64,000 bases of DNA from Sulfurospirillum sp. SCADC (GCF_000743525.1 NZ_JQGK01000003.1:62001-126000); one strand, 5' to 3'; counted from the first letter of the stretch, positions 680-17,630 are shown. The notes: generated from the sequence alone by a model not told the origin. Numbers and translations are program-made.

Positions 680-847
680 GATAAATCCTTACATGTCAAA
701 GCGCCATTATAGCAAAATCAGTCAATAAACATTGACCGTGTTAACCTTTTTCTAAGTCACAAAAGCTTATGATAACATCCAAATCATGTAACGGCTTAAG
801 GTTTAAGCGTACATCAAAATGACATGACACTGCTCTTTTTGATATAT

Positions 848-971: not shown

Positions 972-1418
972 ATGAAACTCTCTTCATTGTTAGCGTTACC
1001 CCTTGCGGCATTATTGCTTATTGGATGTGGTGGAAAAGTGAAAGAAAATGCTAAGTACAACTACATTACAGCGGATGAAACGGCAAAGTTGATGCGTGAA
1101 GACGCCTCTAAAATCGTCTTGGTGGACATTCAAGAGAAAAAAGATTTTGAGGAAGAGCATTTAAAAGGTGCGCTTGAAACCTATGCGTATCCTGTTAAAA
1201 CCGAGGATGAAAAAGCCCGACTTGCAGCATTGCTTCCAGACATTAAGCCAGATCAAAAAGTGATCATCGTCTGCCCAAGAGGCGGTGGAGGAGCAGATAG
1301 GGCGTATGACTTTTACCTTGAAAAAGGGCTCAAAAAAGAACAACTCTTAACGCTCAAAGACGGTCAATACGGTTGGCCTCGCGATAAAATCAAAGATGTT
1401 TTAGCCGTTAGCAAATAA
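972..1418 (+). CDS. Rhodanese-domain lipoprotein
   Basis: The 148-residue product begins with a lipoprotein signal peptide whose lipobox LIGC places the lipidated cysteine at residue 19, so it should be anchored in the periplasm. Residues ~35-145 form a single rhodanese domain, with the candidate active cysteine at C101 in VIIVCPRGGGG. Rhodaneses carry persulfide sulfur or bind thiol/metalloid substrates. The loop CPRGGGGADR is longer in glycines than classic rhodaneses, so the true substrate is unclear. The start follows AGGAG (961-965). Its TAA stop shares one base with the ATG of the next gene, so it is the first gene of a five-gene operon. Confidence 0.85.
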   Translation: MKLSSLLALPLAALLLIGCGGKVKENAKYNYITADETAKLMREDASKIVLVDIQEKKDFEEEHLKGALETYAYPVKTEDEKARLAALLPDIKPDQKVIIVCPRGGGGADRAYDFYLEKGLKKEQLLTLKDGQYGWPRDKIKDVLAVSK

Positions 1419-2089
1419 TGCTCAAACCTTCCAAAATCGCGATACTGCTTCTTAGCGGTGTCGCGCTTACCCTTTTTTTTATCTGCCCTCAGACACGCCA
1501 TTTCTTTTTTGAGTTGATCGCCCTGTTTCAAAGCTTAGACATCGAAACTATCAAAGCGTACATTCTCTCCTTTGGCATGCTCGCTCCTTTGGTTTCTTTT
1601 GCGTTGATGGTCTTTCAAGCGGTCTTGGCACCACTTCCAGCGTTTCTCATCACCTTTGCGAACGCAGCGCTCTTTGGCTGGGTGTATGGAGCCGCACTTT
1701 CATGGTTTAGCGCGATGGTGGGAGCACTGTTGTGTTTTTACATCGCCAAGTTTTTGGGTCGCGATGTGGTCGAAAAACTCACCAGTAAAATGGCGTTGGA
1801 AAGCGTGGATGCTTTTTTTGAGAAGCATGGCACGTACGCGATTGTGATCGCCAGACTGCTTCCGTTTATCTCCTTTGATGTGGTGAGTTACGCCGCAGGG
1901 TTGACCTCCATGAGGCTGAGCTCTTTTTTGATCGCCACAGGTATGGGGCAACTGCCTGCAACGTTGGTCTATTCGTACGCAGGAGAGATGCTCACAGGCG
2001 GCGCTAAAACGGTCGTTTACGGTCTTTTGATCTTGTTTGCGGTTTCTATTTTGGTCTACCTGATCAAGCGGGTGTATCGTGCAAAGTGA
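1418..2089 (+). CDS. TVP38/TMEM64 (DedA-like) membrane protein
   Basis: A 223-residue integral membrane protein with about six hydrophobic segments. It carries the VTT/SNARE-associated domain, including the re-entrant stretch around FANAALFGWVYGA and the arginine-containing motif IVIARLLPFISFDVVSYAAG that typifies TVP38/TMEM64 proteins. Relatives are implicated in lipid scrambling or in uptake and export of small ions, and they recur beside mercury, selenium and arsenosugar genes. It overlaps the rhodanese gene by one base and the following Fe-S gene by 11 bases, so the three are translationally coupled. The substrate cannot be read from the sequence. Confidence 0.85.
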   Translation: MLKPSKIAILLLSGVALTLFFICPQTRHFFFELIALFQSLDIETIKAYILSFGMLAPLVSFALMVFQAVLAPLPAFLITFANAALFGWVYGAALSWFSAMVGALLCFYIAKFLGRDVVEKLTSKMALESVDAFFEKHGTYAIVIARLLPFISFDVVSYAAGLTSMRLSSFLIATGMGQLPATLVYSYAGEMLTGGAKTVVYGLLILFAVSILVYLIKRVYRAK

Positions 2090-3191
2090 GATTAGCGCGT
2101 ATGAAAAGGCGTGTGTAGACTGTAGGAGCTGTATGAAGGGCTGTCCGATGCTTTACAGCTTCACCATTTCTCCCAAAACATTGCTGAGTAAATTTACCAC
2201 GGAACGTCCTTCGAGCGATATGGCATTTGCCTGTGCCAATTGTGGACTTTGCGCGCATATGTGTCCTCAAGACATCGACTTTGGAAAGGTGTTTACCGCT
2301 TCCAAAGCGCAGTTTGCGGAAGATAAAAACGTGTTGAAAAAGTACGGTTATGGTGCGGTCATCTTCCACCAAAAAAGTAGTTTTTCAAGACTTTTTTCGA
2401 CGACTAAAAGCTTTACGCAAGGAGCGTACACGCATATGGCATTTATGCCCGGATGTGCGCTGAGCTCGTACTCTCCACGCCTTATTCATACGGTTTTTCA
2501 TTACTTACAATCCAAATGCTCAGGCATGGGCATCATTCAGCAGTGCTGTGGCACACCCACACGCATGATGGGCGACATGACGCAGTTTCAAACTTACCAT
2601 TCCAAGCTTGAGCGTGATCTTGAAAAAATGGGCGCAACCACGGTGGTGACTGCGTGTGAGAACTGTTTTATGAGTCTTAAAACCTATGTGCCGCATATCA
2701 AAATCGTCTCGCTTTATTCATTGTTAGCTCAAATCGGACTGCCAGAGCATGCAAAAGAGCGCCATAAAAATGCACCCAAAATGGCACTGCATGACCCGTG
2801 TCCGACGCGGTATGAAAAAGAGATTCACCACGATGTGCGCACGCTTTTAATGCAGATCGGATTGCCTTATGAGGAGTTCAAACAAAACCGTGAAAAAACG
2901 CTCTGCTGTGGCAGTGGGGGCATGTTGGAACTCACCCATTCGGGCTTAGCGCATGAGCAGATGCGTTCTCGTGCCCATCAAACGGAGTGTGAGAGCATTG
3001 TCAGTTACTGCCAAAGTTGCGCGGAGTCGATGAGTAAAGGGGGTAAAAACGGGGTGCATCTGCTCGATCTCATCTTCAATCCTGCGTTTGCGATGAAACA
3101 AGAAGTGCCGGGCACTTTAAAAAAATGGTATAACCGTTTTAGCTCACGCCAGAAAATCAGCGCTTTAAAGGATAACGCATCAAAAAAGTGA
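2079..3191 (+). CDS. CCG-domain (Fe-S)-binding oxidoreductase, GlpC/HdrB-like
   Basis: 370 residues starting at GTG, overlapping the preceding gene. Two N-terminal 4Fe-4S motifs are visible (CVDCRSCMKGCP near residue 13 and CANCGLCAHMCP near 51). They are followed by two CCG domains: CCGTPTRMMG with a later ACENC, and CCGSGGMLEL with a later YCQSCAE. This is the layout of glycolate/lactate oxidase iron-sulfur subunits and heterodisulfide reductase HdrD-like proteins, which move electrons between flavoproteins, quinones and disulfides. No flavin partner gene adjoins it. A soluble cytoplasmic protein handling thiol-disulfide or metalloid redox chemistry in this operon is a reasonable inference. 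Confidence 0.8.
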   Translation: MQSEISAYEKACVDCRSCMKGCPMLYSFTISPKTLLSKFTTERPSSDMAFACANCGLCAHMCPQDIDFGKVFTASKAQFAEDKNVLKKYGYGAVIFHQKSSFSRLFSTTKSFTQGAYTHMAFMPGCALSSYSPRLIHTVFHYLQSKCSGMGIIQQCCGTPTRMMGDMTQFQTYHSKLERDLEKMGATTVVTACENCFMSLKTYVPHIKIVSLYSLLAQIGLPEHAKERHKNAPKMALHDPCPTRYEKEIHHDVRTLLMQIGLPYEEFKQNREKTLCCGSGGMLELTHSGLAHEQMRSRAHQTECESIVSYCQSCAESMSKGGKNGVHLLDLIFNPAFAMKQEVPGTLKKWYNRFSSRQKISALKDNASKK

Positions 3192-3823
3192 TTTTGTTTT
3201 TAGCCTTTGGCATCGTGATGTTCGTCTTTTATAAAATGGGCGTGCTCTCTTATGCGCAAGTCGAATCGATCCAAACCTTTGTGCAAAGCTTTGGCATCTA
3301 CGCACCGCTGATCTTCATCGTCCTTTTCACGCTTGCACCCCTCATCTTTTTTCCCGATGGCATTTTAGCGCTTGCCGGTGGGCTTATCTTTGGGTTTGCG
3401 TGGGGTAGCGTTTATATCATTTTAGGTGCGTTGTGTGGCGGTACTTTGTCGTTTTATCTTGCACGACTGTATGGCAAAAAAATGCGTGAAAAATTGGCGC
3501 ATGAAAAGCTGATTACCTTTCAAAAAAGCGTTCAAAACCATGGATTTGTGGTGATTTTACTCCTTCGTTTAGTGCCACTTGTGCCGTTTAATATCATCAG
3601 TTACAGCGCAGGGTTTTCTACGATTCGCTACCGTGATTTTTTCTTGGCAACGCTTTTGGGCATGCTTCCTGGGGTTTTGGTGTATGCGAACATCGGAGCA
3701 CAATCGCTGAGTTTTGGAAGCAGGGAATTTTACATTTCGGTAGGTTTATTGGGCGTACTTGTCGTGATTTCAATGATTTTAAAACACCGTGTCAAAAAGA
3801 GGTTAGAAGCGTATGAAAAATAG
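3188..3823 (+). CDS. TVP38/TMEM64 family membrane protein (second copy)
   Basis: 211 residues, starting at GTG within the stop region of the upstream gene (GTGA overlap). It has the same VTT-domain pattern as the protein at 1418, with VILLLRLVPLVPFNIISYSAGF as the family motif, but the two paralogues are clearly diverged. Two non-identical TVP38 proteins in one operon is unusual. They could form a heteromer or act on different substrates. The C-terminus is basic (HRVKKRLEAYEK). The last 11 bases overlap the start of the radical SAM gene. Confidence 0.84.
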   Translation: MILFLAFGIVMFVFYKMGVLSYAQVESIQTFVQSFGIYAPLIFIVLFTLAPLIFFPDGILALAGGLIFGFAWGSVYIILGALCGGTLSFYLARLYGKKMREKLAHEKLITFQKSVQNHGFVVILLLRLVPLVPFNIISYSAGFSTIRYRDFFLATLLGMLPGVLVYANIGAQSLSFGSREFYISVGLLGVLVVISMILKHRVKKRLEAYEK

Positions 3824-6794
3824 TTGGCAGAGAATCGTTTTTGAAGAGCGTCCGATTTACGTGCACCGTTTTAGTGCAGACTGGTTTGTGCCAAATGCAA
3901 GTGCAGATGCGCTTTTACAAAGTGCGGAAAAAAGCCTTGCGTATGAGACGTTAAAACACCGCATCTCAGAGCCCAATCCGCTGGTTTACACACCCAAATC
4001 CTCTTCCAAAACAGCTCTTCACGAGTTTTGGATACACCTCACCAACCGTTGCAATCTTAGCTGTACGCACTGCCTTTTTAGCTCTTCACCTAAAGAGAAA
4101 GATACGCTGAATTTCGAGACGATTGCTTTACATGTAAATGAGGCGTACACTCTTGGCTGTCGGCTTTTTATCATCAGCGGTGGTGAGCCGTTGGTGCATC
4201 CTGAACTGTTGGCTTTGGTGGAGATAATTTTAGCGATGAGCGACACCGAAGTGGTCATTTTAACCAATGGCATCTTGCTTGAAAAAGTCTTTACATGTAA
4301 AGACTTCCCAACCTCACGTCTGCACTTCCAAATCAGCCTTGATGGATTGCCTAAAGAGCATGATGCGATTCGAGGCGTTGGGAGTTTTGAGAAACTTGAG
4401 CGCAACATCCTTTGGCTTCAAAAAGCAGGGTATTCGTTCTCGCTTTCGGTCTGTCTGCATCCACTGAATATCCACAGTTTAGATGCGATTGTGACGTTGG
4501 CAAGCGCACTTAAAGCGGGTCATCTGCATTTCTTATGGTACTTTTCGCGTGGACGAGGCGTTGATGAGGGCTTGATAGCGCATGACACGCTCTTTAACGC
4601 GCTCACAAACGCCTATCAAAAAGCGCAAACGTTAGGACTTGTCATCGACAATTTTGAAGCCCTGAAAACACAAATCTTCGCGCCAAAAGGCACGGTGCAT
4701 GACGGCTCAAGTTCAGGGCGCAGTTCCATCGCTTTAGGTTACGATGGGCACTTTTACCCCAGTGCGGCGATGGTCGGCGAGGGCGCACTTTGGATGGAAG
4801 GAGAGAGCATTGCTGAAGCACTTGAAAGCAGAGTGGCTAAAGACATTGCGTCGCATTCCATCACCGCACTCTCTTCACCACTGCGCTTTTTACTTGGTGG
4901 CGGCGACTTAGACCACAGCTTTTCGCATGCCAAAACAGTGATGGGCGATGACCCGTATGAACCGCTGTTGGAAAAGCTCGCATTGTGGCTGATCCTGCAA
5001 GAGGCGAAGCAGTTTGAATCTTTACATGTAAAGCCTGCTTTATGTTTGGAGATGGGCGACATTCTTTACAGTTGTGGGGCAAATGAGGGCGTGGCGCATA
5101 CCCATGCGAACTGTCTGCTTGCCACTGGGGAGAGCGAGTCGTTGCGCTTGGTCAAAGCCTTTTACCATGATGCGGCATTGGAAGATAAGGAAAGCATTCT
5201 CAATCCTGCGTGCTACGAAGAGCAGTACCTTTCGCATATTCCCTCCCATTTGCGCTTTCGAGGCTACGGCTGTGGAAGTCCTATCTTAGATGCGAAACTA
5301 AAGCAGGGTGAGTCGATGCTAGATTTGGGTTCAGGCAGAGGCATTGAGTGTTTTATCGCCTCCAAATTGGTGGGTAAAAATGGGCGTGTGGTGGGGGTTG
5401 ATATGCTCGACTCGATGCTGAAAATCGCGCGAAGTGGGGCAGAAGAGGTGGCTCAAAGTCTGGGGTATAGCAACCTCACGTTTGCCAAAGGCTACCTTGA
5501 AGCATTGCCTGAAAATGAGGGGAGTTTTGATGTCATCACTTCCAACTGCGTGCTCAATCTCTCCAGTCATAAACGCAAACTCTTTGCGGAAATCTTTCGG
5601 GTGCTGAAAAAGGGTGGAAGGCTTGTGGTCTCCGATGTCATCTGCGATGAAGAGGCGAGCGCTATCATCCGCAATGATGCGAAACTGAGTGGCGAGTGCA
5701 TCGGTGGAGCGCTTACGCAAACCCATCTTTTAGGACTGCTTCGTGAGAGTGGGTTTGAGCATATTGCGCTTATCAAACGCTTTTTTTACCGTGAAGTGCA
5801 AGGGCACAATTTTTACTCGCTCACCTTTGAGGCGTACAAATCCAGTGAACAAAAGAGGATCGAAGTCATCTATAAAGGTGTGGGCGAGAGCCTCGCGTTG
5901 GACAACGGTGTTGTGCTGTTTAAAGGCATCAAAACACGTATCGATGAGGCGTTGGCGAAACGGTTGGAAAGCGAGCTGTTTCTACTCGATGAAAAGGGAA
6001 ATGCCACCAACCAAGAGGGGCAAAGCTGTTCGTGTGCGACACCGCCTGAGGCGAAATCAAGCCTTTTAGTGGCACCTACAGCAAAGGTTTCCTTTAGTGT
6101 AGCACCTAAACAAAATCATAACTGCATGGTCTGCTCCTCAGAGCTTGTCTATAAGGCGACGCTTGAAGAAGCCACATGCTCCTACTGCGGAAGTATCAGT
6201 CATCAAAGCGTTACATGTAAAGAGGGGCATTATGTCTGCGATGCGTGTCACTCTAAAGAGGCATTAGCGGTGATAGAGCATCTCTGTGCAACATCCCAAG
6301 AGCGTGATATGCTCAAACTTTTTAGGCAAATCAGAGAACACCCCAGCATCCCAAAACACGGTCCTGAACACCACGCGATGGTGCCTGTCATCATCGTAAC
6401 TGCCTATAAAAACAGTGGTGGAAAACTGCCCGAAAATGCACTTAAAGCCGCCATTTCAAGAGGTTCTAGCGTGATGGGTGGCGCGTGTGGGTTTTTAGGA
6501 ATTTGTGGTGCGGCAAGCGGTGTTGGCATTGGTTTTGCCATTTTGTTAGAGGCTTCACCCGTAGCAAAAAAAGCGCGCTCCACAGCTCAAAAAGTAACGT
6601 ACGCGGTGCTCGGCAAAATCGCCGAATACGAAGCGGCTCGTTGTTGTCACAGGGAAGTCTGGACAGCGCTCAACATCGCCTCATCGTTGTCCGAAACGTT
6701 TTTACATGTAAAGCTTTTGGCTGAGAGAGAAACCAAATGCGATCAGAAGAAATTTAACCAGTATTGTTACGGCAAAGCGTGCCCGATCTTTTAA
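3813..6794 (+). CDS. Radical SAM / SAM-methyltransferase / DUF5714 fusion protein
   Basis: A 993-residue multidomain protein. Residues ~70-260 are a radical SAM domain with the cluster motif CNLSCTHC (C80, C84, C87) and the GGEP motif at ~123. Residues ~465-650 are a class I methyltransferase (LDLGSGRG at 503-510, VVGVDM at ~526) preceded by FRGYGCGSPI, a signature shared with ArsM-like methyltransferases. Residues ~765-993 are cysteine-rich and match the DUF5714 layout (CMVCSSEL, CSYCGS, CDACHS, then GGACGFLGICG). The radical SAM half lacks an obvious cysteine-rich SPASM end. The combination suggests C-S/As/Se bond chemistry plus methylation; the substrate is unknown. Five copies of the TTACATGTAA palindrome are embedded in frame. 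Confidence 0.82.
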   Translation: MKNSWQRIVFEERPIYVHRFSADWFVPNASADALLQSAEKSLAYETLKHRISEPNPLVYTPKSSSKTALHEFWIHLTNRCNLSCTHCLFSSSPKEKDTLNFETIALHVNEAYTLGCRLFIISGGEPLVHPELLALVEIILAMSDTEVVILTNGILLEKVFTCKDFPTSRLHFQISLDGLPKEHDAIRGVGSFEKLERNILWLQKAGYSFSLSVCLHPLNIHSLDAIVTLASALKAGHLHFLWYFSRGRGVDEGLIAHDTLFNALTNAYQKAQTLGLVIDNFEALKTQIFAPKGTVHDGSSSGRSSIALGYDGHFYPSAAMVGEGALWMEGESIAEALESRVAKDIASHSITALSSPLRFLLGGGDLDHSFSHAKTVMGDDPYEPLLEKLALWLILQEAKQFESLHVKPALCLEMGDILYSCGANEGVAHTHANCLLATGESESLRLVKAFYHDAALEDKESILNPACYEEQYLSHIPSHLRFRGYGCGSPILDAKLKQGESMLDLGSGRGIECFIASKLVGKNGRVVGVDMLDSMLKIARSGAEEVAQSLGYSNLTFAKGYLEALPENEGSFDVITSNCVLNLSSHKRKLFAEIFRVLKKGGRLVVSDVICDEEASAIIRNDAKLSGECIGGALTQTHLLGLLRESGFEHIALIKRFFYREVQGHNFYSLTFEAYKSSEQKRIEVIYKGVGESLALDNGVVLFKGIKTRIDEALAKRLESELFLLDEKGNATNQEGQSCSCATPPEAKSSLLVAPTAKVSFSVAPKQNHNCMVCSSELVYKATLEEATCSYCGSISHQSVTCKEGHYVCDACHSKEALAVIEHLCATSQERDMLKLFRQIREHPSIPKHGPEHHAMVPVIIVTAYKNSGGKLPENALKAAISRGSSVMGGACGFLGICGAASGVGIGFAILLEASPVAKKARSTAQKVTYAVLGKIAEYEAARCCHREVWTALNIASSLSETFLHVKLLAERETKCDQKKFNQYCYGKACPIF

Positions 6795-6795
6795 A

Positions 6796-7656
6796 TCAAT
6801 GGGTCTGATACCGCTTCATAAAAAAATGATGCAACCACAATGAAAAGGCGATGACACCGCTTCCCAAAGCGAGCAAGGTGTAATTGGTTGGTGTTCCCCA
6901 AATGAGAAGGTTCATCACTAATCCTGCGGGAACTAAAGCATTGTTCATGATGCCAAGCACGCCTGCATCGACTTCACACACGCCCTTGTTCCATAGAAAA
7001 TACCCAAGCCCTGAGGCTACGACGCCCAGCCACAGTAAAACGCCCCATTGTGTGAAGGTTGGGGAGAGTTTTTCTGTGCTGCCAAACCATCCAAACGCAA
7101 CTAAACTGACGATCAAGGCTCCAAAATGAAAGTACCCAAACACGTCGCGTTGTGAGATGTTTTGATGCGACTCCATCACTTTTTTATAGGCACTTTGCCC
7201 GATGGCAAAACAGATATTGGCCCCTTGTATCATCAAAAAACCGGTAATAAACTGCGATGTCACATCGTGGTAACGGATGATATACGCTCCCAAAACCGCC
7301 ACACCCGTGCTCACAAGATACAGGGGTTTGAACTCTTTTTTTAAAGCATCATAAGCTAACGTCACGTAAATGGGGGTAAAAATGGTGAAAAGAATGACCT
7401 CAGGCACGCTAAGAAACAGAAAGGATTGGTAGAAAAAGAGGTACATCATGCCTATTTGTACACTGCCGATCAGCATGATTTTCAGTTTTAATTCCGTAGC
7501 GATTCCTCGAAATTTTGTGAAGGGTAAAAAGAGAAGTGAGGCAAGGGAAACACGCACTAAGACAGCAAAATAGCTATCGATTTTCCCAGATAAAACTTCG
7601 CCAATAAAACTAAACGAAAACGCCCAGATCAGCGTCATCAGAATCAAATATCGCAT
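6796..7656 (-). CDS. EamA/DMT family transporter
   Basis: 286 residues with ten predicted hydrophobic segments in two EamA repeats of about 140 residues, ending in a basic tail (HHFFMKRYQTH). DMT exporters of this type move amino acids or other metabolites out across the inner membrane. The gene converges on the radical SAM operon, with the two stop codons separated by almost nothing, so the strands probably share termination signals. No neighbouring gene identifies the substrate. Confidence 0.82.
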   Translation of the reverse strand: MRYLILMTLIWAFSFSFIGEVLSGKIDSYFAVLVRVSLASLLFLPFTKFRGIATELKLKIMLIGSVQIGMMYLFFYQSFLFLSVPEVILFTIFTPIYVTLAYDALKKEFKPLYLVSTGVAVLGAYIIRYHDVTSQFITGFLMIQGANICFAIGQSAYKKVMESHQNISQRDVFGYFHFGALIVSLVAFGWFGSTEKLSPTFTQWGVLLWLGVVASGLGYFLWNKGVCEVDAGVLGIMNNALVPAGLVMNLLIWGTPTNYTLLALGSGVIAFSLWLHHFFMKRYQTH

Positions 7657-7767
7657 GGATGTCCTTCTTAAAACGAAGCCATTACTATACCATGCGGATG
7701 ATTATGTTTAACGTAAAAAATTGCAGAAGAGAAGAAGGCAGGTCAAGCCTGCCTTAATGACATGCAA

Positions 7768-7980
7768 TTACGCACCTAAAACAATACAGCCCTCTGTTGG
7801 ACAGGCTTCCATACACGCTGGTGAGCCATGATGATCTACACACTCAACACATTTGTCTGGATAAACATAATAAATATCTGCTCCTGTTGGGTTGTCGCTA
7901 TCATCCACAATAGCCTCCACAGGACACTCATCAATACAGGCGCCACATGAGATACAAATATCTGTAATTTTTACTGCCAT
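7768..7980 (-). CDS. 2[4Fe-4S] ferredoxin
   Basis: A 70-residue soluble ferredoxin. The first cluster motif is CISCGACIDECP near the N-terminus. The second is the extended form CVECVDHHGSPACMEACP, with an insertion between the first two cysteines and the PACMEACP block that is common in Campylobacterota ferredoxins. Such proteins carry electrons for pyruvate and 2-oxoglutarate oxidoreductases. It is monocistronic, with its own upstream region carrying a TTACATGTAA palindrome at 8047. Start: ATG preceded by AAGGA-like sequence. Confidence 0.9.
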   Translation of the reverse strand: MAVKITDICISCGACIDECPVEAIVDDSDNPTGADIYYVYPDKCVECVDHHGSPACMEACPTEGCIVLGA

Positions 7981-8155
7981 AACTTTTCCTTAAATGAGAT
8001 TTTTAATCAAAAAATTTTACTGTAAGATCGTAGCATGAAAATAGCGTTACATGTAAAAGCGGCTAGACGTTAAAAATTTACGATATTTCCTTTTTTCTCA
8101 GCAATTTTATAGCAAAAGGAGACTATAAAGTGAAGATGAAACGACAAGGATCTGC

Positions 8156-9292
8156 ATGCAAAACAGTCACAAATCTGATTCAATCAACATCTCCTCATGG
8201 ACCGATAAATACTTTTCAAACACCAAAGCGATCATCGAACATTTCGGAGACACAGACGTCACGTATGCGTTCTTTTTACGTCGCCCCGTACTTTGCGCAA
8301 CGCGTTTAGCTACGCAGTGGATTCAAGCACAAGCGAAAAAGGACGGCATGAGAGTTACCATCGAAATGCTGCACGAAGAGGGCGAATGGGTCGGTGCAGG
8401 CGAGCCTTTGTTTTATCTCAGCGGTTCGTTTGCTTTTTTGGTGGAACTCGAAACGCTCATCTTACAAAAGCTAGGCTCCGCGTGTGTTGCCGCTTACAAT
8501 GCCTATGAGATGTGCCAAATACTCCCCAATGTCGCTTTTTTAGCGATGGACGCGCGCCATTGTGCAGGTACAGAAATGGCTGAGATGATGGCGTATGGGG
8601 CATCGGTTGGCTCAAACGTGGCACAAAGTAAACTGGGAGCGGTAGGATTTATCGGCAATGCAACCGATGCAACGGCTCATTTTTTCGGACGTGAAAAAGG
8701 GCTGGGCACGGTTCCTCACGCTCTCATCGGTTACTCTGGCTCAACGCTAAAAGCGGCTCAAATGTTCCATGAATGCTTCCCCAAAGAGAATATCCCCATC
8801 TTAGCGGACTATTTTGGTCAAGAAATCACCGATACCTTGGAAGTCTGTAATGCCTTTGCAGGCTTGGCGCACGAGGGAAAGATCGCCGTGCGCCTCGATA
8901 CCCACGGTGGACGCTTTTTGGAAGGACTTGATACGCAAAAAAGTTACCATGTCCTAGAACGCCATGCACCCGATGCCGTGCGCGATTACCGCACGGAAGC
9001 CGAGTTGCACGACCTGATCGGCACAGGTGTTTCAGCCGCGGCACTATGGAGTATGAGGGAATCTCTGGACAACGCAGGATTTCCAAAAGTACGCATCATC
9101 GCCTCTTCAGGCTTCACACCGCAAAAATGCCGCTCAATGGCATGGGCAAAAGCGCCCATCGACATCATCGGTACAGGCTCTTTTCTACCCGATAAATGGA
9201 GTGAAACCAATGCCACAGCCGACATCATCGCTTACGGTGGTGTGCCAAGGGTCAAAGTTGGACGGGAATTTTTACTTAAGAAGAGTCGTTAA
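8156..9292 (+). CDS. Nicotinate phosphoribosyltransferase family protein
   Basis: 378 residues. The N-terminal TDKYFSNTKAIIEHFGDTDVTYAFFLRRP block, the GEPLFYLSG strand and the central GTVPHALIGYSG and late IIASSGFT...IDIIGTGSFLP segments are those of the PncB/NadC phosphoribosyltransferase fold. The expected reaction joins nicotinate and PRPP in NAD salvage, in the cytoplasm. It is shorter than E. coli PncB and could act on a related base. The ATG at 8156 follows AAGGA at 8146-8150; a stronger Shine-Dalgarno (AAAGGAGA) further upstream leads only to an out-of-frame GTG at 8130. The gene stands alone. Confidence 0.75.
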   Translation: MQNSHKSDSINISSWTDKYFSNTKAIIEHFGDTDVTYAFFLRRPVLCATRLATQWIQAQAKKDGMRVTIEMLHEEGEWVGAGEPLFYLSGSFAFLVELETLILQKLGSACVAAYNAYEMCQILPNVAFLAMDARHCAGTEMAEMMAYGASVGSNVAQSKLGAVGFIGNATDATAHFFGREKGLGTVPHALIGYSGSTLKAAQMFHECFPKENIPILADYFGQEITDTLEVCNAFAGLAHEGKIAVRLDTHGGRFLEGLDTQKSYHVLERHAPDAVRDYRTEAELHDLIGTGVSAAALWSMRESLDNAGFPKVRIIASSGFTPQKCRSMAWAKAPIDIIGTGSFLPDKWSETNATADIIAYGGVPRVKVGREFLLKKSR

Positions 9293-9297
9293 ATTGT

Positions 9298-9326
9298 TTG
9301 TAATTGTACTACGTTTGTGGTACAAT
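9298..9326 (+). promoter_or_regulatory. Promoter and operator of the toxin-antitoxin module
   Basis: A -35 box TTGTAA (9298-9303) and -10 box TACAAT (9321-9326) are separated by 17 bp. A perfect inverted repeat ATTGTAC (9303-9309)/GTACAAT (9320-9326) spans the spacer and the -10. This is the arrangement expected for autorepression by a RelB/DinJ-type antitoxin. The operator role is inferred from position. Confidence 0.7.
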
Positions 9327-9346
9327 TTTATAAAAAAGGAGACACC

Positions 9347-9598
9347 ATGAGAACCAGTACCAGTGTTCGCATCGATGAAGAGACAAAGCTGATTGCCTCG
9401 GAAGTATTAAAACAGTATGGTATGAGCCTGAGTGAGGGAATTAACCTTTTTTGTAAGCAAGTCGTTATGACGTATTCCATCCCTTTTGAGTTAAAAGTGC
9501 CAACGGAGAGAATGAAAAAAGCACTCAAAGAGCTAGAGAAGAGAGAAGGAAAATCATTTGATTCCATCGAAGCATTAAAAGCTGATCTTGAGTCATGA
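9347..9598 (+). CDS. RelB/DinJ family antitoxin
   Basis: 83 residues when started at ATG 9347, which has a good Shine-Dalgarno (AAAAAGGAGA). An upstream GTG in frame would lie inside the promoter. The sequence MRTSTSVRIDEETKLIASEVLKQYGMSLSEGINLFCKQV is a ribbon-helix-helix DNA-binding domain of the RelB/DinJ family. The C-terminal half (ERMKKALKELEKREGKSF) should wrap the toxin. Its stop overlaps the toxin start (ATGA), the classic coupling of these modules. Confidence 0.85.
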   Translation: MRTSTSVRIDEETKLIASEVLKQYGMSLSEGINLFCKQVVMTYSIPFELKVPTERMKKALKELEKREGKSFDSIEALKADLES

Positions 9599-9852
9599 AA
9601 TACTCCATCTTTCGTACATCTTCTTTCAAAAAAGCCTATAAAAAGCTCTCTTCATCTGAGCAAGAACTTGTTTTAACGATTGTTGTTAAACTTGCTCAGG
9701 GTGAAAGTTTGGATGAAAAATACAAAGATCATTTTCTGATAGGCAACTATAAAGGATGTCGGGAGTGTCACATTAAACCCGATTTACTGCTCATCTACAA
9801 AATCAATAACGATGAAGTGGAATTGGTTTTGGTAGAAGTTGGTAAATCGTGA
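9595..9852 (+). CDS. YafQ/RelE-type mRNA interferase toxin, probably C-terminally truncated
   Basis: 85 residues. The start YSIFRTSSFKKAYKKL and the core GNYKGCRECHIKPDLLLIYK match YafQ-type ribosome-dependent mRNA interferases, with the conserved histidine and aspartate of HIKPD. Members normally end in a strand followed by RxGSHSELF-like residues that complete the active site. Here the product stops after LVEVGKS, so the last catalytic arginine/histidine/phenylalanine are absent. Moving one base at the run AAA (9842-9844) would give NREALPDF and a stop, so a single-base slip is possible. DNA immediately downstream belongs to another gene remnant, so a recombination join is an alternative. 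The toxin may be inactive. Confidence 0.75.
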   Translation: MKYSIFRTSSFKKAYKKLSSSEQELVLTIVVKLAQGESLDEKYKDHFLIGNYKGCRECHIKPDLLLIYKINNDEVELVLVEVGKS

Positions 9853-10017
9853 AGCATTGCCCGACTTTTGAATATATATTTGGTTTATAATACCCGCATT
9901 ATGTACAAGAATGTCTCTAGATGCTTTCGCCTCGGCGATTTGCTCAAGTTCATCTTTTGAAACGTGAGGAATAGAAACAATTTTATATAAATCACCCAAA
10001 CTGCTAGTTGCGAAGAA
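9853..10017 (-). pseudogene. Remnant of a HEPN-like hypothetical protein gene
   Basis: On the reverse strand about 55 codons read SLGDLYKIVSIPHVSKDELE, then IAEAKASRDILVHNAGIINQ and IYIQKSGNAS, bounded upstream by a stop. The RDILVHNAGIINQxYIxKSG segment is typical of HEPN-like abortive-infection proteins (the conserved R-x4-6-H region). There is no start codon with a ribosome site, and similarity ends exactly where the toxin gene begins on the other strand, so I read this as a 3'- and 5'-truncated fragment. The rest of the 393-bp gap to napA holds the nap control region and one TTTACATGTAAA. Confidence 0.5.
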
Positions 10018-10173
10018 GGGTCTAAAAATTTAGAAATTTATAATGAAAAGTAGAAAGGGAGAGGCTACTTTTTATCTGCCACAAACTCATAGAATTCTGG
10101 TAAATAACGTTACATCTCTTTTTTACATGTAAACCCAAAATCCCCACAAAATTAAATTTACAAAACTAAAATA

Positions 10174-10215
10174 TTGACTTAAGTCATAGATTGGATTTTT
10201 GCTAAGTGATAGAAT
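10174..10215 (+). promoter_or_regulatory. FNR/NssR-like activator site and -10 box of the nap operon
   Basis: TTGACTTAAGTCAT at 10174-10187 has the TTGAC-N4-GTCAa form of CRP/FNR-family operators. A -10 box TAGAAT lies at 10210-10215, so the site is centred close to -41.5 of a start near 10222, the classic class II activator position. Campylobacter NssR recognises a similar TTAAC-N4-GTTAA. Control of nap by an anaerobic or nitrosative-stress regulator is inferred. Confidence 0.6.
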
Positions 10216-10246
10216 GACCTCGTAACTCAAATCAGGAGGTTTCAAC

Positions 10247-13036
10247 ATGTCGCTTTCAAGAAGAGACTTTTTAAAAACATCTGCCGCTGTGAGCGCTGCT
10301 GCTGCGGTGGGCATTAGCGTGCCTTCCGAGCTTAAGGCCGCAGGGGAACACGCCGAAAAAGATTGGCGTTGGGACAAATCCGTTTGCCGATTCTGTGGTA
10401 CCGGTTGTGGTATTATGGTTGCGACCAAAGAGGGTAAAATCGTCGCAGTCAAAGGTGATCCAGCAGCTCCCGTCAATCGCGGACTGAACTGCATCAAGGG
10501 CTATTTTAATGCCAAAATTATGTACGGAGCGGATCGTCTTAAAGAGCCACTTCTTCGGATGAACGACAAAGGCGAATTTGACAAAAAAGGTCAATTCAAA
10601 CCTGTTTCATGGAAACGTGCGTTTGACGAGATGGAAAAACACATCAAAGCCGCTTTTAAAGTCGGAGGTCCTGAAGCCATTGGTGTTTTTGGTTCCGGTC
10701 AATACACGATTCAAGAAGGCTATGCCGCGGCGAAGCTTATGAAAGCGGGATTTCGTGCCAATGGAATTGATCCTAATGCCCGTCACTGTATGGCATCAGC
10801 GGTTGCTGGTTTTATGCAAACCTTTGGCATCGATGAGCCAGCAGGCTGTTACGATGACATCGAACTCACCGACACGATTGTGACGTGGGGCGCCAATATG
10901 GCAGAGATGCACCCGATTTTGTGGTCACGGGTGAGCGATCGTAAATTAACAGATCCCGATAAAGTCAAAGTGGTCAATATTTCGACCTATACGCACCGCT
11001 GTTCTGACTTAGCCGATCTTGAGATTATCTTCTCTCCAAGTACCGACCTTGCGATGTGGAATTATATTGCGCGTGAAATTGTGTACAACCATCCCGAATC
11101 TATTGATTGGGATTTTGTTAAAAAACATACTATTTTTGCAACAGGTTTTGCCAATATTGGGTATGGAATGCGCACAGAAGCCGAAGCAAAGAAGCTAGGG
11201 TATTCTGCAAAAGAGCTTGAAATCATTAAAAAAGAAGATGCCAAAGTCATTAGTGAAAAAGAGGCTCCCGGTCTTGCTCACTTAGGTGTCAAAGTGGGCG
11301 ATACCATGAAAATGGACAAAGCAGGCGCTGCTGGGGCTCACTGGGAAATTACCTTTGAAGATTTCAAAAAAGCGTTGGAGCCTTACACCTTAGACTACGT
11401 TGCGAAAATTTCTAAAGGCAATCCCGATGAGAGCCTTGAGGATTTCAAAGCAAAACTGCAAACACTTGCCAATCTGTATATCGATAAAAATCGTAAAGTT
11501 GTCAGCTTTTGGACGATGGGCTTTAACCAACATCAACGTGGTACGTGGGTCAATGAGCAATCGTATATGGTTCACTTTTTATTGGGAAAACAAGCCAAAC
11601 CAGGTTCAGGTGCGTTCTCATTGACAGGACAACCGAGTGCGTGTGGAACGGCACGAGAAGTGGGAACATTCACCCACAGACTTCCAGCCGATATGGACGT
11701 TTCTATCCCTGCCCACAGAGCGGTCAGTGAAAAAATTTGGAAACTCCCTGCGGGCACACTCAACCCCATGGGGTATCAACATATTATGAATATTCACCGT
11801 CAAATCGAGAGTGGAAAAATAAAATTTGCATGGGTCAATGTGTGCAATCCTTACCAAGACACCGCCAATGCGGAACACTGGATCAAAGCGGCTCGTAATT
11901 TGGACAATTTTATCGTCTGTTCGGATGCGTATCCTGGCATTTCGGCTAAAGTGTCTGATCTTATCTTGCCTTCTGCGATGATTTATGAAAAATGGGGATC
12001 ATACGGCAATGCAGAGCGTCGTACACAACACTGGAGACAGCAAGTCCTCCCCGTTGGTGATGCGATGAGTGACACATGGCAGTGGGTTGAGCTTTCCAAA
12101 CGCTTTACGATTAAAGAGGTTTGGGGTGAGCAACCGATCAAAGATGGCAAGCTTCCAAATGTCATCGAAGCTGCAAAAGCGATGGGGTACAAAGAAACTG
12201 ACACCCTTTATGATGTTCTCTTTGCCAATGAATTTTTCAAATCATTCAAAGCAAAAGACCCGATTGGGGAAGGGTTTGATAACTCTGAAGTGTTCGGGGA
12301 TAAGCGTGGCGTAATGGGCAGCGATGGCAAAGCGTGGAAGGGCTATGGTTTCTTCTTGCAAAAAGCTTTATGGGAAGAGTATCGCCAATTTGGACTAGGT
12401 CATGGACATGACTTGGCGGATTTTGACACGTATCATAAAGTCAGAGGTCTTAAATGGCCCGTCGTCGATGGCAAAGAGACCCAATGGCGCTTTAATGCGA
12501 AGTACGACCCGTATGCGGCAAAAGCCAATAACGGTGAGTTTGCATTTTACGGTAGCGCAGCAAAAGCACTCAAACGTGGCAATCTTGTAAAACCAACCAC
12601 CGAAGAGACCTTCTCTTTGAAAAACAAAGCAAAAATTTTCTTTAGACCCTATATGGATCCATGCGAAATGCCAGATGCCCAGTACGATACATGGTTGTGT
12701 ACAGGACGTGTGTTAGAGCACTGGCACAGTGGCACGATGACAATGAGGGTTCCTGAGCTTTACCGCGCTGTTCCTGAAGCATTGTGTTATATGCACCCTG
12801 AAGATGCAAAAATGAAAGGCTTTAAACAAGGCGAATTGATTTGGATGGAGAGTCGAAGAGGGTCGTGTAAAGCACGTGTCGAGACGCGTGGACGTAACCG
12901 AACCCCACGAGGGCTTGTGTTTGTGCCTTGGTTTGATGAAAAAGTGTTTATCAACAAAGTGTGCCTCGATGCAACATGTCCGATCTCAAAACAGACAGAC
13001 TATAAAAAATGTGCGGTTAAGCTTTATAAAGCCTAA
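10247..13036 (+). CDS. napA: Periplasmic nitrate reductase catalytic subunit NapA
   Basis: 929 residues. A Tat signal (SRRDFLK, residues 4-10) directs export of the folded molybdoprotein. The 4Fe-4S site is C47-x2-C50-x3-C54 with C82 (NCIKG). The molybdenum-ligand cysteine is expected at C181 in [10 protein letters not shown]. The bis-MGD domains run to the C-terminus. NapA reduces nitrate to nitrite in the periplasm using electrons from NapB. AGGAGG precedes the ATG. It heads the operon napAGHBFLD, an order characteristic of Campylobacterota, and its length matches that group. An FNR-like site lies upstream. Confidence 0.97.
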
Positions 13037-13044
13037 TCATAACG

Positions 13045-13860
13045 ATGAAAACAACCGACAAAATCGCAATCTCAGACCGTCGTAAATTCCTTGCTTTGAT
13101 GGCTCAAGGCGGTGGACTGATGGCTCTGGGTGGCATGGTGTGGACAGGGTATTTGGAAGAGGCGAAGGGCACTCCTTTGATTTTAAGACCGCCTGGGGCA
13201 GCTCTTGAGGCAGACTTTATGCGCTTGTGTATCAAGTGTGGGCAGTGCGTTACTGCGTGTCCGTACGATACGCTCATCCTTGCCAAACCCGGAGATACAA
13301 AGCCACTGGGAACGCCTTTTTATATTCCGAGAGAGGTTCCGTGTTATATGTGCCCTGACATACCCTGTGTGCCTGTGTGCCCAAGTGGAGCATTGGAAGC
13401 AAAACGTGTTTCTAAGATCACAGAGGGTGTGAATGAACTTGACATCACTCAAGCACGTATGGGGCTTGCCGTCGTTGACGTGGAGTCGTGCATTGCATTT
13501 TGGGGGATTCAGTGTGATGCGTGTTATCGAGCGTGTCCGATTATGGACAGTGCGATTAAGTTAGAGTACAAACGCAATGAGCGAACCGGCAAACATGCCT
13601 ATTTGACACCCGTGGTCAATAGCCTGACCTGTACAGGGTGTGGCTTGTGCGAGAGGGCATGTGTTACTGAAAAAGCGGCGATTCATGTGCTTCCTTTGGA
13701 AATTGCCAAAGGAAGTATCGGCTCTCACTACATTAAAGGCTGGGAGCAAGGGGATGAGAAACGCTTAGAAAAAGAGCAGGGCGATGTCACGACGCATACC
13801 AAACGGAGCGAGAAGTCTGCGACAGACTATTTAAACGCGAATGAGGAGATGTTCAAATGA
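13045..13860 (+). CDS. napG: Quinol dehydrogenase ferredoxin subunit NapG
   Basis: 271 residues with an N-terminal DRRKFLALMAQGGG Tat-type leader and four cysteine clusters for 4Fe-4S centres: CIKCGQCVTACP, CYMCPDIPCVPVCP, CDACYRACP and CTGCGLCERAC. NapG and the membrane protein NapH form the menaquinol dehydrogenase that passes electrons to NapB/NapA. This explains the absence of a NapC-type tetraheme cytochrome in this operon. It starts eight bases after napA and overlaps napH by ATGA. Confidence 0.95.
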   Translation: MKTTDKIAISDRRKFLALMAQGGGLMALGGMVWTGYLEEAKGTPLILRPPGAALEADFMRLCIKCGQCVTACPYDTLILAKPGDTKPLGTPFYIPREVPCYMCPDIPCVPVCPSGALEAKRVSKITEGVNELDITQARMGLAVVDVESCIAFWGIQCDACYRACPIMDSAIKLEYKRNERTGKHAYLTPVVNSLTCTGCGLCERACVTEKAAIHVLPLEIAKGSIGSHYIKGWEQGDEKRLEKEQGDVTTHTKRSEKSATDYLNANEEMFK

Positions 13861-14690
13861 GAGAATGGATACGAAGCCACCGTTTTATGATGGCACGACG
13901 TTTGACTCAGCTGGGCATTCTTGGCTTATTTGTCGCTGCCAATAGCTATGGTTTTATGCTCTTAAGTGGTACGTTGAGTGCCTCTTTGGTGTTTCATAAA
14001 CTTCCCTTAGCCGATCCGTTTGCCCTGTTGCAGATGTTAACAGCTGGAGCACTTTTAGGCGTAGATGTCCTTGTGGGTGGCGCTTTAATCCTGCTATTTT
14101 ACATTGTTGTCGGAGGTCGTGCCTTTTGTTCATGGGTCTGCCCGATCAACATGGTAACGGACGCAGCCAATGCAACACGCAGGGGTCTTTTACTCGATAA
14201 AACGATTGAAAAAAAACTTTGGCTCAGTCGCAGTGTTCGGTACTGGGTTTTAGCTCTGAGCCTGATACTCTCGTTTATCACAGGGGTTGCAGCATTTGAG
14301 ATGGTCAGTCCTATCGGGATTTTAAGCCGAGGCATCATCTTTGGTATGGGGCTTAGTATGGCGCCCATACTGTGCATCTATCTGTTCGACCTGTTTGCGG
14401 TGAAAAATGGCTGGTGTGGACACATCTGTCCTTTGGGTGGATTTTACGCTCTGGTGGGGAGGCTTAGTTTGATTCGTGTAAAGCACGATCATACGAAGTG
14501 TACCTTGTGCATGAAATGTAAAGAGATTTGCCCTGAAAAACAGGTGCTTGGCATCATTTCGAAGCAAAGTGGCGCGATCACATCAGGTGAGTGTACCAAC
14601 TGTGGTAGATGCGTTGAGGTGTGTGAGAGTGATGCACTCTCTTTTGGCGTGAGGAATTACATTAACACAAATGTAGGAGAAAAAGAATGA
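13857..14690 (+). CDS. napH: Quinol dehydrogenase membrane subunit NapH
   Basis: 277 residues with four transmembrane segments. The two polyferredoxin-type cytoplasmic motifs CSWVCP (near residue 93) and CGHICP (near 186) mark the quinol-oxidising NapH family. Two 4Fe-4S motifs (CTLCMKCKEICP, CTNCGRCVEVCE) close the C-terminus. The protein sits in the inner membrane, oxidises menaquinol and hands electrons to NapG. Start and stop overlap the adjacent genes by four bases each, showing tight translational coupling. Confidence 0.95.
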   Translation: MREWIRSHRFMMARRLTQLGILGLFVAANSYGFMLLSGTLSASLVFHKLPLADPFALLQMLTAGALLGVDVLVGGALILLFYIVVGGRAFCSWVCPINMVTDAANATRRGLLLDKTIEKKLWLSRSVRYWVLALSLILSFITGVAAFEMVSPIGILSRGIIFGMGLSMAPILCIYLFDLFAVKNGWCGHICPLGGFYALVGRLSLIRVKHDHTKCTLCMKCKEICPEKQVLGIISKQSGAITSGECTNCGRCVEVCESDALSFGVRNYINTNVGEKE

Positions 14691-15211
14691 TCAATACAAA
14701 AACATTAATAATGGGTTCTTTGTTAGGTATGATGATAGCAACGGGATGTGCTGTGTCTCAGTCGTACAACGAAGAGGAATTAGGGCTTAGAAAGGTGGAT
14801 CTCTACAGCGAAAAGAGCGTTGTAAGTGAGCCAACATCGTACTCGACGGTGAGTGCAGGTGAATCTAAAGTGATTCAACGTTCGTTTGAAAACGCGCCTC
14901 CTATGATTCCGCATGATGTTGAGGGTATGATGGAGATCAGCAAAGAGAGCAATGCGTGTACAGGATGCCATATGCCAGAAGTGGCAGAGGCAGTGAAAGC
15001 GACGCCGATTCCAAAGTCGCACTTTTTTGATATGCGAACGCAAAAGGTGCTCACGGAGATGAGTCAAGCTCGTTACAACTGTACCGCATGCCATGCGCCA
15101 CAATCGGCAAACGAGCCTTTGGTTAAAAATGAATTTAAACCAGAGTATCGTAAAGCAAATGGTGCACAACGTTCAAACCTTCTTGATACACTCAATGACG
15201 GCGTGAAATAA
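14687..15211 (+). CDS. napB: Di-heme cytochrome subunit NapB
   Basis: 174 residues. An export signal ends near MIATGC21, where the cysteine could also serve as a lipid attachment site. Two c-type heme motifs, C90TGCH and C131TACH, are present, as in NapB. Further histidines (HDVEGM near 75, KSHFF near 110) can act as distal ligands. NapB delivers electrons to NapA in the periplasm. The protein follows napH with an ATGA overlap, and napF starts two bases after its stop. Confidence 0.95.
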   Translation: MINTKTLIMGSLLGMMIATGCAVSQSYNEEELGLRKVDLYSEKSVVSEPTSYSTVSAGESKVIQRSFENAPPMIPHDVEGMMEISKESNACTGCHMPEVAEAVKATPIPKSHFFDMRTQKVLTEMSQARYNCTACHAPQSANEPLVKNEFKPEYRKANGAQRSNLLDTLNDGVK

Positions 15212-15213
15212 GC

Positions 15214-15732
15214 ATGCAAAATAGCAGCAGAAGAGGGGTTTTTACCTCTCTTTTTGGTAGGAAAAGCGCACAAAAAATTCAAAAAGAGCCCAGTGTGGTG
15301 CGCCCACCGTATCATCAAGAGGGGTATGATTTTTTAGATCATTGCGTTACATGTAACGAGTCACCGTGCATGAACGCCTGTGAAGAAAAGATCATCTTCC
15401 TAGGTGCCGACCATACGCCTTGCTTAGACTTTACCAAAGGTGGATGTACCTTTTGTGAAGCGTGCGCAAGTGCGTGTCCGAGTGATGTTTTGAGTCTTAC
15501 ATGTAAAGATCAAAAAGCTTTACATGTAAAAGCGCAAATCGACATCTTGAGCTGTATGGCATGGCATCAAAGTTTGTGCAACAGCTGTTTGGATGCGTGT
15601 GAGCCTAGGGCTATTTTATTTTTAGGATTGTTTCGCCCACATGTCGAGATGGATGTCTGCACTGGCTGTGGCATGTGTGTAAGCATCTGCCCAAGCAGTG
15701 CGATTCTCATCAAAGAGGAGGTAAAGGTATGA
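15214..15732 (+). CDS. napF: Ferredoxin-type protein NapF
   Basis: 172 residues, no signal peptide, so cytoplasmic. Cysteine groups for 4Fe-4S centres are seen: CVTCNESPCMNAC, CTFCEACASACP, CMAWHQSLCNSCLDACE and CTGCGMCVSICP. NapF is thought to help mature or energise NapA before export. Three copies of the TTACATGTAA palindrome occur in frame (15347, 15497, 15520), producing VTCN, LTCK and LHVK. One falls directly at the first cluster motif, so its cysteine is part of the cluster. Stop overlaps the napL start. Confidence 0.93.
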   Translation: MQNSSRRGVFTSLFGRKSAQKIQKEPSVVRPPYHQEGYDFLDHCVTCNESPCMNACEEKIIFLGADHTPCLDFTKGGCTFCEACASACPSDVLSLTCKDQKALHVKAQIDILSCMAWHQSLCNSCLDACEPRAILFLGLFRPHVEMDVCTGCGMCVSICPSSAILIKEEVKV

Positions 15733-16676
15733 GGTATTTTTTGATCATGAGCCTGTGTGTGAGCGTACTTTTCAGTGCCGAACTGAGCCCTCGAAGCATT
15801 ATTCAAGCACGTGGAAATGTACAACACATAGCGCTTTCCGAGGGTAAAATCATCGCAGGAACGAGTGTGGGTACGGTTGAGATTTTTAAGATGGAGGATG
15901 CTTCAAAACTTGCTCAGATTGTTCTCCCCACGATTAAAGACTTTACCGGCGATGAGGTCGCTCCCAAAGTTTTTTCGGTCGATATGTTAGGTAACACGCT
16001 TTTAGCAGTCGTTCAAGCCAGCAGTGGAGCACGTGAGCTTTACCTTATAGAGGAGGGCAAACCCAAAGTGCTCATCGATGCGCATGCCAATCTTTTCATC
16101 TCCAAAGCGAAATTTGTCGATAAAAACCGCATTTTAGTCGCTCTTTTGAGCAATGAATTTTTACTCTGGGACATTGGCGCACACAAAGAGATCTACCGCG
16201 TTCAGCCTTCCTCTTCGCACTTTAGCGATTTTGCGTTGAATGAAACCAAAACCATGGTGGCAAGTTCGTGCGAATCGGGTGAGATAACCGTCTTTGATGC
16301 GCTCAGTGGTAACATCATCAAAGTGCTCAAAGGTGGCAATGTGGACAATGTCTACAACGTTGACTTTAAAAAAGAGAAAATTCTCTGTGCAGGGCAAGAT
16401 CGACGTGGCATTATTTACGATCTTAAAAGTAGGGCGTATGATCGCTTTGATGGCTCGTTTCTGATCTATGCAGGCGCTCTGAGTCCTAGCCTAAAATTTG
16501 GCGCGTTTGCCTTGAATGAACAAAACGATATTGTCCTGTTTGACCTTGCCACGAAAACCAAAGTCCATACGCTCAAAGGGCAGAAAAGTACGCTCAATAC
16601 CATCGTTTTTGCTACGGATAAAGAGCTGGTCAGTAGCAGCGACGATCAATTTATTATGATTTGGAGACTCCCATGA
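15729..16676 (+). CDS. napL: NapL beta-propeller protein
   Basis: The in-frame start is ATG 15729, overlapping the napF stop; upstream starts in this frame would run through napF. The 315-residue product has an export signal (MRYFLIMSLCVSVLFSA) and repeated blades such as GKIIAGTSVGTVEIFKM, KTMVASSCESGEITVFDA and KELVSSSDDQFIMIW, so it is a WD40-like propeller in the periplasm. NapL is found only in Campylobacterota nap operons. Its role is unknown; it is non-essential for nitrate reduction in the few species studied. Confidence 0.9.
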   Translation: MRYFLIMSLCVSVLFSAELSPRSIIQARGNVQHIALSEGKIIAGTSVGTVEIFKMEDASKLAQIVLPTIKDFTGDEVAPKVFSVDMLGNTLLAVVQASSGARELYLIEEGKPKVLIDAHANLFISKAKFVDKNRILVALLSNEFLLWDIGAHKEIYRVQPSSSHFSDFALNETKTMVASSCESGEITVFDALSGNIIKVLKGGNVDNVYNVDFKKEKILCAGQDRRGIIYDLKSRAYDRFDGSFLIYAGALSPSLKFGAFALNEQNDIVLFDLATKTKVHTLKGQKSTLNTIVFATDKELVSSSDDQFIMIWRLP

Positions 16677-17026: not shown

Positions 17027-17036
17027 AGGAGCTGCC

Positions 17037-17573: not shown

Positions 17574-17630
17574 AGGAGCCTTAAGCGCATACGCGGTACA
17601 ATACCTTTAAAAAATATAAAGGCAATATCC

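Follow-up and report, generated by a model that had tools for sequence, protein, structure and literature searches.

A Conserved Sulfurospirillum Operon Encoding a Radical SAM/Methyltransferase/DUF5714 Fusion and Its Probable Link to Arsenosugar-Type Biosynthesis

Organization of the Locus

The locus described here is a five-gene operon of Sulfurospirillum sp. SCADC, located in a stretch of 64,000 nucleotides (the window; GCF_000743525.1, NZ_JQGK01000003.1:62001-126000) of a 2.66-Mb Sulfurospirillum-like genome (G000). Its last gene, gene 5, encodes a radical S-adenosylmethionine (SAM) domain, an ArsM-type methyltransferase domain and DUF5714 in a single chain, and the locus is probably devoted to arsenosugar-type biosynthesis. 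Five open reading frames were verified at 972-6794, with successive overlaps of 1, 11, 4, and 11 nt (Table 1), in agreement with the preliminary description of this DNA, which had been made from the sequence alone and considered the five genes overlapping or nearly touching. That description limited the unit to 972-6794; the five genes stand while the extent does not, as a divergent kinase and a glycosyltransferase are added to the left.

Gene 3, whose second half matches NF045663 at 250 bits, is a candidate electron carrier, and for gene 4 the precise start is uncertain, its orthologues being about 9 residues shorter. An EamA gene at 6796-7656 was left out of the operon because its adjacency is inconsistent among loci. 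The five-gene order recurs in almost every Sulfurospirillum genome examined. In G164, gene 5 and the four-gene core lie at separate loci. A split gene 5 in G056 (L045) was considered as a natural fission and ruled out, since small indels in the DNA identify it as a frameshift. Gene 3 is frameshifted at L095 in G308, and in G271 (L050) the operon is almost wholly lost, 66 aa of gene 5 being left as a remnant.

Table 1. Features of the locus; positions are counted from the first letter of the window.
Feature	Position	Strand	Remarks
TIGR04282-TIGR04283 glycosyltransferase fusion, 439 aa	~-1713..-394 (G000:C3:60287-61606)		beyond the window edge, after the kinase
S-methyl-5-thioribose-kinase-like gene (APH fold), 363 aa	1..679, runs left to -412	-	
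Conserved 31-bp dyad CATGTAACGGCTTAAGGTTTAAGCGTACATC, candidate operator	785..815		divergent promoter; found in 14 Sulfurospirillum loci
Gene 1, rhodanese-domain lipoprotein, 148 aa	972..1418	+	PF00581, 36 bits; conserved in operon
Gene 2, VTT/TVP38 membrane protein, YdjZ subtype, 223 aa	1418..2089	+	VTT, 98 bits over 33.9
Gene 3, 4Fe-4S dicluster and CCG domain protein, 370 aa	2079..3191	+	Fer4_17 and CCG
Gene 4, second VTT/TVP38 membrane protein, nearer YdjX, 211 aa	3188..3823	+	VTT, 101 bits
Gene 5, radical SAM/ArsM-type methyltransferase/DUF5714 fusion, 993 aa	3813..6794	+	
Gene 5 CX3CX2C (C80, C84, C87), predicted [4Fe-4S] site	4050..4073	+	conserved 16/16
Gene 5 ArsM-like methyltransferase domain, residues ~459-660	5187..5792	+	
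Gene 5 Cys487, equivalent of CmArsM Cys72	5271..5273	+	ArsM structure alignment
Gene 5 Cys579, equivalent of CmArsM Cys174	5547..5549	+	ArsM structure alignment
Gene 5 Cys629, equivalent of CmArsM Cys224	5697..5699	+	ArsM structure alignment
Gene 5 zinc-ribbon-like cysteines C771-C812	6123..6248	+	shared with stand-alone DUF5714 proteins
Gene 5 DUF5714 domain, residues 821-992	6273..6788	+	PF18978, 194 bits; cut-off 26.2 passed

Domains of the Fusion Protein

Gene 5 has an uninterrupted frame in which 389 of 993 positions are invariant among 16 orthologues, and the domain matches bear out the triple fusion in one 993-residue chain recognized in the preliminary description. The Radical_SAM domain (PF04055) covers residues 75-229 with 77.6 bits over a threshold of 29.5. 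Comparison with the ArsS family TIGR04167 gives 50.7 bits in the core only, and the cut-off of 300 is not reached; profile comparison with ArsS likewise aligns mainly the radical SAM core, and DUF3641 (PF12345), present in the ArsS proteins of G194 and G166, was not found in gene 5. The nearest relatives of the radical SAM domain are NirJ/MftC/SPASM-type enzymes.

The methyltransferase domain aligns with the ArsM structures 4kw7 and 4fr0 at 4e-39 and scores 203-206 bits with NF008823, below the curated cut-off of 263; the other Campylobacterota ArsM proteins score no more than 193 bits. The arsenite-binding triad C487/C579/C629 is conserved in all 16 gene 5 orthologues. In a small tree with long branches the domain clusters separately from the ArsM part of ArsS-ArsM fusions; it is a separate lineage, not orthologous to them.

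The C-terminal portion, of about 220 residues, corresponds to an entire stand-alone DUF5714 protein. Such proteins are encoded beside arsM, with arsR, in Paraclostridium plasmids (ACR3 also being present in one of them), and in Lachnospira the gene is flanked by arsR and a low-molecular-weight phosphatase. The DUF5714 domain is also related to the first half of the double selenoprotein MbdU (NF045648), which shares with gene 5 the zinc-ribbon and DUF5714 module. In contrast, gene 5 scores 130 bits with this family (the cut-off of 600 not being reached), has no counterpart to the second half of MbdU, and uses Cys codons with no in-frame TGA, whereas MbdU has two selenocysteines. A homology test between DUF5714 and C_GCAxxG_C_C proteins gave a weak match (20% probability), and the ATP synthase c-subunits that DUF5714 matched in the PDB were rejected as chance-level matches. 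The structures predicted for the whole of gene 5 and for its DUF5714 part alone, with predicted local distance difference test scores (pLDDT) of 49.9 and 49.5, are too poor for a fold search.

Divergent Kinase and Glycosyltransferase

The kinase scores 223 bits with TIGR01767, below the curated cut-off of 275, and matches the methylthioribose kinase 2olc at 3e-32; the G166 kinase beside TIGR04283 reaches 303 bits with the same model. The glycosyltransferase fusion passes both of its family thresholds, with 172 bits for TIGR04282 (cut-off 134) and 227 bits for TIGR04283 (cut-off 182), and both families carry the name "arsenosugar biosynthesis glycosyltransferase". The pair adjoins the operon in 13 complete Sulfurospirillum loci examined and adjoins gene 5 in two related genera.

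Distribution of Gene 5, ArsS, and TIGR04283

Phyletic counts were made on one set of 298 Campylobacterota genomes; weak TIGR04283 matches (74-108 bits) were counted as paralogues, and a match at G181:C23 was regarded as likely high-GC contamination, while other phyla were sampled through plasmid records and E. coli. A search for the fusion and its neighbours, proposed in the preliminary description, recovered gene 5, with DUF5714 above its cut-off, in 11 of these genomes, all Sulfurospirillum or a nearby genus, and with a nearly constant five-gene order. Strong TIGR04283 matches occur in 23 genomes, namely 12 with ArsS and 11 with gene 5; no genome has both, and neither is found outside the 23 (raw Fisher P 8e-35; P 7e-7 for the zero overlap, with shared ancestry ignored in both). 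Canonical ArsS was not found in G000. In agreement with this one-for-one complementarity, three Sulfurospirillum genomes without intact gene 5 (G122, G264, and G271, the last with the remnant) have no strong TIGR04283 match. YdjZ-type VTT genes of the gene 2 kind are present in 22 genomes, all among the 23, and the exchange between gene 5 and ArsS-ArsM is seen in at least two genera of the family (G324 with gene 5 vs G194 with ArsS-ArsM, and G164 with gene 5 vs G320 with ArsS-ArsM).

Comparison with ArsS Loci and Organoarsenical Clusters

The ArsS operon of Campylobacter type (L139-L142, L146-L149) encodes, with small variations, a rhodanese lipoprotein, a YdjY-like protein, a TIGR04282-APH kinase fusion, a YdjZ-type VTT protein, a second VTT protein, TIGR04283, a CCG protein, ArsS, and a C_GCAxxG_C_C protein. 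It thus shares the rhodanese, two VTT, CCG, TIGR04282, and TIGR04283 components with the Sulfurospirillum operon, the YdjZ-type VTT being within most ArsS operons. The differences are that ArsS and the C_GCAxxG_C_C protein take the place of gene 5, that the kinase is fused to TIGR04282 and that ArsM is usually not found. Sodium/solute symporter-like and metallophosphoesterase-like genes recur beside these operons (L139-L141, L146-L149).

Closer to Sulfurospirillum, the ArsS-ArsM fusions of Sulfurospirillaceae (G194, G302, G320) have a radical SAM domain followed by an ArsM domain, as in gene 5, and in G194 the fusion adjoins the rhodanese-VTT-CCG-VTT core. These proteins, however, are true ArsS with DUF3641 (checked in G194) and without DUF5714, and neither of their domains is orthologous to those of gene 5.

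The cyanobacterial ArsS and ArsM pathway (TIGR04167, TIGR04282, TIGR04283) likewise combines radical SAM and ArsM proteins with the same glycosyltransferase families and occupies the same phyletic slot; in contrast, gene 5 is one chain with DUF5714 and a non-ArsS radical SAM domain, and the methylthioribose-kinase-like gene further sets the Sulfurospirillum locus apart. The ArsS gene of a Burkholderia plasmid has TIGR04282, TIGR04283, and a methylthioadenosine phosphorylase in its neighbourhood. The arsinothricin cluster arsQML, which also produces an organoarsenical by means of radical SAM and ArsM proteins, differs in having separate genes, another radical SAM type and no glycosyltransferases or VTT proteins.

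VTT/CCG/Rhodanese Modules outside Arsenic Loci

Gene 2 shares 52% identity with E. coli YdjZ over 215 aa and 58% with an Acetoanaerobium homologue whose cluster includes an ABC transporter, a CDP-alcohol phosphatidyltransferase, and a YdjY-like protein. In Fusobacteriota and Clostridia, related VTT, CCG, and rhodanese genes are accompanied by genes for an ABC transporter and for a CDP-alcohol phosphatidyltransferase. The E. coli ydjXYZ-ynjABCDEF neighbourhood, as the Sulfurospirillum operon, combines YdjZ- and YdjX-type VTT proteins with a rhodanese, but it has an ABC transporter, YdjY, YnjA, and YnjF of its own and no ArsM, ArsS, or glycosyltransferase. In E. coli K-12 (L087) these genes form an FNR-activated operon (PMC3688515).

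The occurrence of VTT, CCG, and rhodanese genes elsewhere with no arsenic genes seen nearby marks them as a general redox or membrane module that is not arsenic-specific in general; within Campylobacterota, this module is tied to arsenosugar genes. An association with unrelated transport or lipid genes, which the preliminary description had set against a metalloid role, is found for the module in Fusobacteriota, Clostridia, and E. coli and is not found in Campylobacterota. Gene 2 has weak similarity to the undecaprenyl-phosphate transporter UptA, and the lipid flavour of the module's relatives could speculatively suggest a lipid-carrier or arsenolipid role.

Interpretation and Alternatives

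Taken together, the ArsM cysteines, the adjacent arsenosugar glycosyltransferases, the complementarity with ArsS and the presence of VTT, CCG, and rhodanese genes in ArsS operons indicate that the locus probably directs arsenosugar-type (arsenic-ribose) biosynthesis, with gene 5 replacing ArsM and ArsS. Among the elements proposed in the preliminary description, this evidence strongly supports arsenic, whereas selenium and sulfur found no specific support. The same description regarded the pathway as undescribed; the locus is rather likely to be a coherent and real variant of the known ArsS-type arsenosugar cluster, and what appears new is the non-orthologous fused synthase, for which no description was found in the literature searched.

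Several observations weigh against this interpretation. The radical SAM domain of gene 5 is, on profile evidence, no ArsS orthologue, and the same reaction is therefore not guaranteed. The "arsenosugar" naming of TIGR04282 and TIGR04283 by NCBI presumably derives from gene context. Neither a regulator nor an efflux gene specific to arsenic was seen next to the operon, no arsenic genes were seen near the VTT/CCG/rhodanese modules of E. coli, Fusobacteriota, and Clostridia, and the stand-alone DUF5714 of Acetoanaerobium has no ars neighbours. Among fragmented bins, G318 has gene 5 and no glycosyltransferase, the mixed bin G313 carries both, and G303 has the glycosyltransferase only. Finally, ArsM was not detected at 1e-30 in 10 of the 12 ArsS genomes (G020, G052, G079, G112, G117, G151, G166, G168, G182, and G256), so that ArsS clusters may differ in substrate, which could be pre-methylated arsenic.

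The distance from ArsS and the proximity to NirJ/MftC/SPASM-type enzymes would also agree with an organoarsenical made by a different radical SAM reaction, such as an ArsL-like 3-amino-3-carboxypropyl transfer or a C-C bond step, and decorated by the glycosyltransferases; ArsL itself is evidence of varied radical SAM chemistry on arsenic. This is nevertheless unlikely, as ArsS and gene 5 have the same kinase, TIGR04282, and TIGR04283 partners, an argument for a common intermediate. The kinase might instead serve the salvage of 5-deoxyribose, a radical SAM by-product, rather than act on arsenoribose, since MTRK-like kinases act in a 5-deoxyribose salvage pathway (PMC6079011); however, neither the isomerase nor the aldolase of that pathway is encoded next to it, and the kinase is overlapped by the TIGR04282 protein, or fused to TIGR04282 in Campylobacter-type clusters, which makes such a role quite improbable.

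It is very unlikely that the VTT, CCG, and rhodanese proteins perform sulfur or lipid trafficking of the YdjXYZ-YnjABCDEF type and that gene 5 and the glycosyltransferase are merely co-located: the similarity of gene 2 to YdjZ and to the Acetoanaerobium homologue in its transporter and lipid-gene cluster, and the separate loci of G164, fit this explanation, while in Campylobacterota the YdjZ-type VTT is confined to arsenosugar-glycosyltransferase genomes (22/22) and lies inside most ArsS operons. Even less probable is an element other than arsenic, that is selenium, tellurium, antimony, or sulfur. The genus Sulfurospirillum is recognized for respiring selenium and sulfur, and DUF5714 resembles the selenoprotein MbdU, but the ArsM cysteine triad, the ArsS complementarity, and the arsM and arsR neighbours of DUF5714 indicate arsenic.

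Proposed Arsenosugar-Type Route

Within the arsenosugar-type interpretation the catalytic steps, the product and the parts played by DUF5714 and by the CCG, rhodanese, and VTT proteins are all inferred, as follows. The methyltransferase domain of gene 5 would methylate As(III) to dimethylarsinous species, and the radical SAM domain would add the 5'-deoxyadenosyl group of SAM to arsenic, yielding 5'-deoxy-5'-dimethylarsinoyl-adenosine, as ArsS is reported to adenosylate arsenic (PMC12159101). The DUF5714/zinc-ribbon tail may bind or hand over the metalloid or supply thiols. Adenine would be removed by a housekeeping nucleosidase and the methylthioribose-kinase-like protein would form arsenoribose-1-phosphate, which the nucleotidyltransferase-like TIGR04282 half could activate and the TIGR04283 half transfer to an acceptor. 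Electrons or thiol/persulfide chemistry may come from the CCG Fe-S protein and the rhodanese lipoprotein, and the two VTT proteins may act on the product or on a lipid carrier by moving or flipping it.

The route is proposed because of the parallel with the two routes of 5-deoxyribose salvage: MTRK homologues accept 5-deoxyribose besides 5-methylthioribose (PMC6079011), and either a phosphorylase or a nucleosidase and kinase would give a 5-substituted ribose-1-phosphate. In its fullest form, which is possible and held tentatively, gene 5 would be a second, independently assembled arsenosugar synthase that methylates and then adenosylates arsenic via a radical SAM domain outside the ArsS subfamily, feeding a complete kinase/nucleotidyltransferase/glycosyltransferase route for late arsenosugar or arsenosugar-lipid steps, with VTT proteins moving the product or lipid carrier.

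Promoter Region and Additional Features

The core of the dyad in the divergent promoter has a single exact match in the whole genome, and the dyad is likely an operator that serves this locus alone; the adjacent genes include no regulator. An inverted repeat with 26-nt arms at 848-930 of the same promoter occurs in some strains only (L049 and L003, with one arm in L042) and is probably, owing to this restriction, an inserted hairpin element. The palindrome TTACATGTAA has 39 sites in the window vs 0.10 expected (for example at 942, 4128, 4291, 5022, 6211, and 6702). Many Sulfurospirillum loci show a similar density, other members of the genus have few copies or none, and the palindrome is lacking in those Campylobacter-type and E. 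coli loci that were counted; it is reminiscent of a highly iterated palindrome such as cyanobacterial HIP1.

A second cluster of the genome (L083, G000:C2:103000-122000, ~5952-17848) contains a gene 3 paralogue fused to an oxidoreductase, together with a methyltransferase, a C_GCAxxG_C_C-like protein, a radical SAM protein, a ligase, and a molybdenum hydroxylase. It resembles the DVU_1551-1559 genes and has similar kinds of parts in another pathway.

Significance

Arsenosugars are major biological arsenic compounds and, to our knowledge, only the first steps of their synthesis (ArsM, ArsS) have assigned enzymes. The locus would supply candidates for the later steps, making late synthesis directly testable, and would bring methylthioribose-type kinases and VTT membrane proteins into the pathway, in which ArsS and ArsM appear swappable for an unrelated fusion. 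It may also illuminate the E. coli ydjXYZ-ynjABCDEF operon, home of close gene 2 relatives. Arsenosugar-type compounds, of which no report in these bacteria was found in the literature searched, are predicted to occur in anaerobic Sulfurospirillum and in relatives of Campylobacter.

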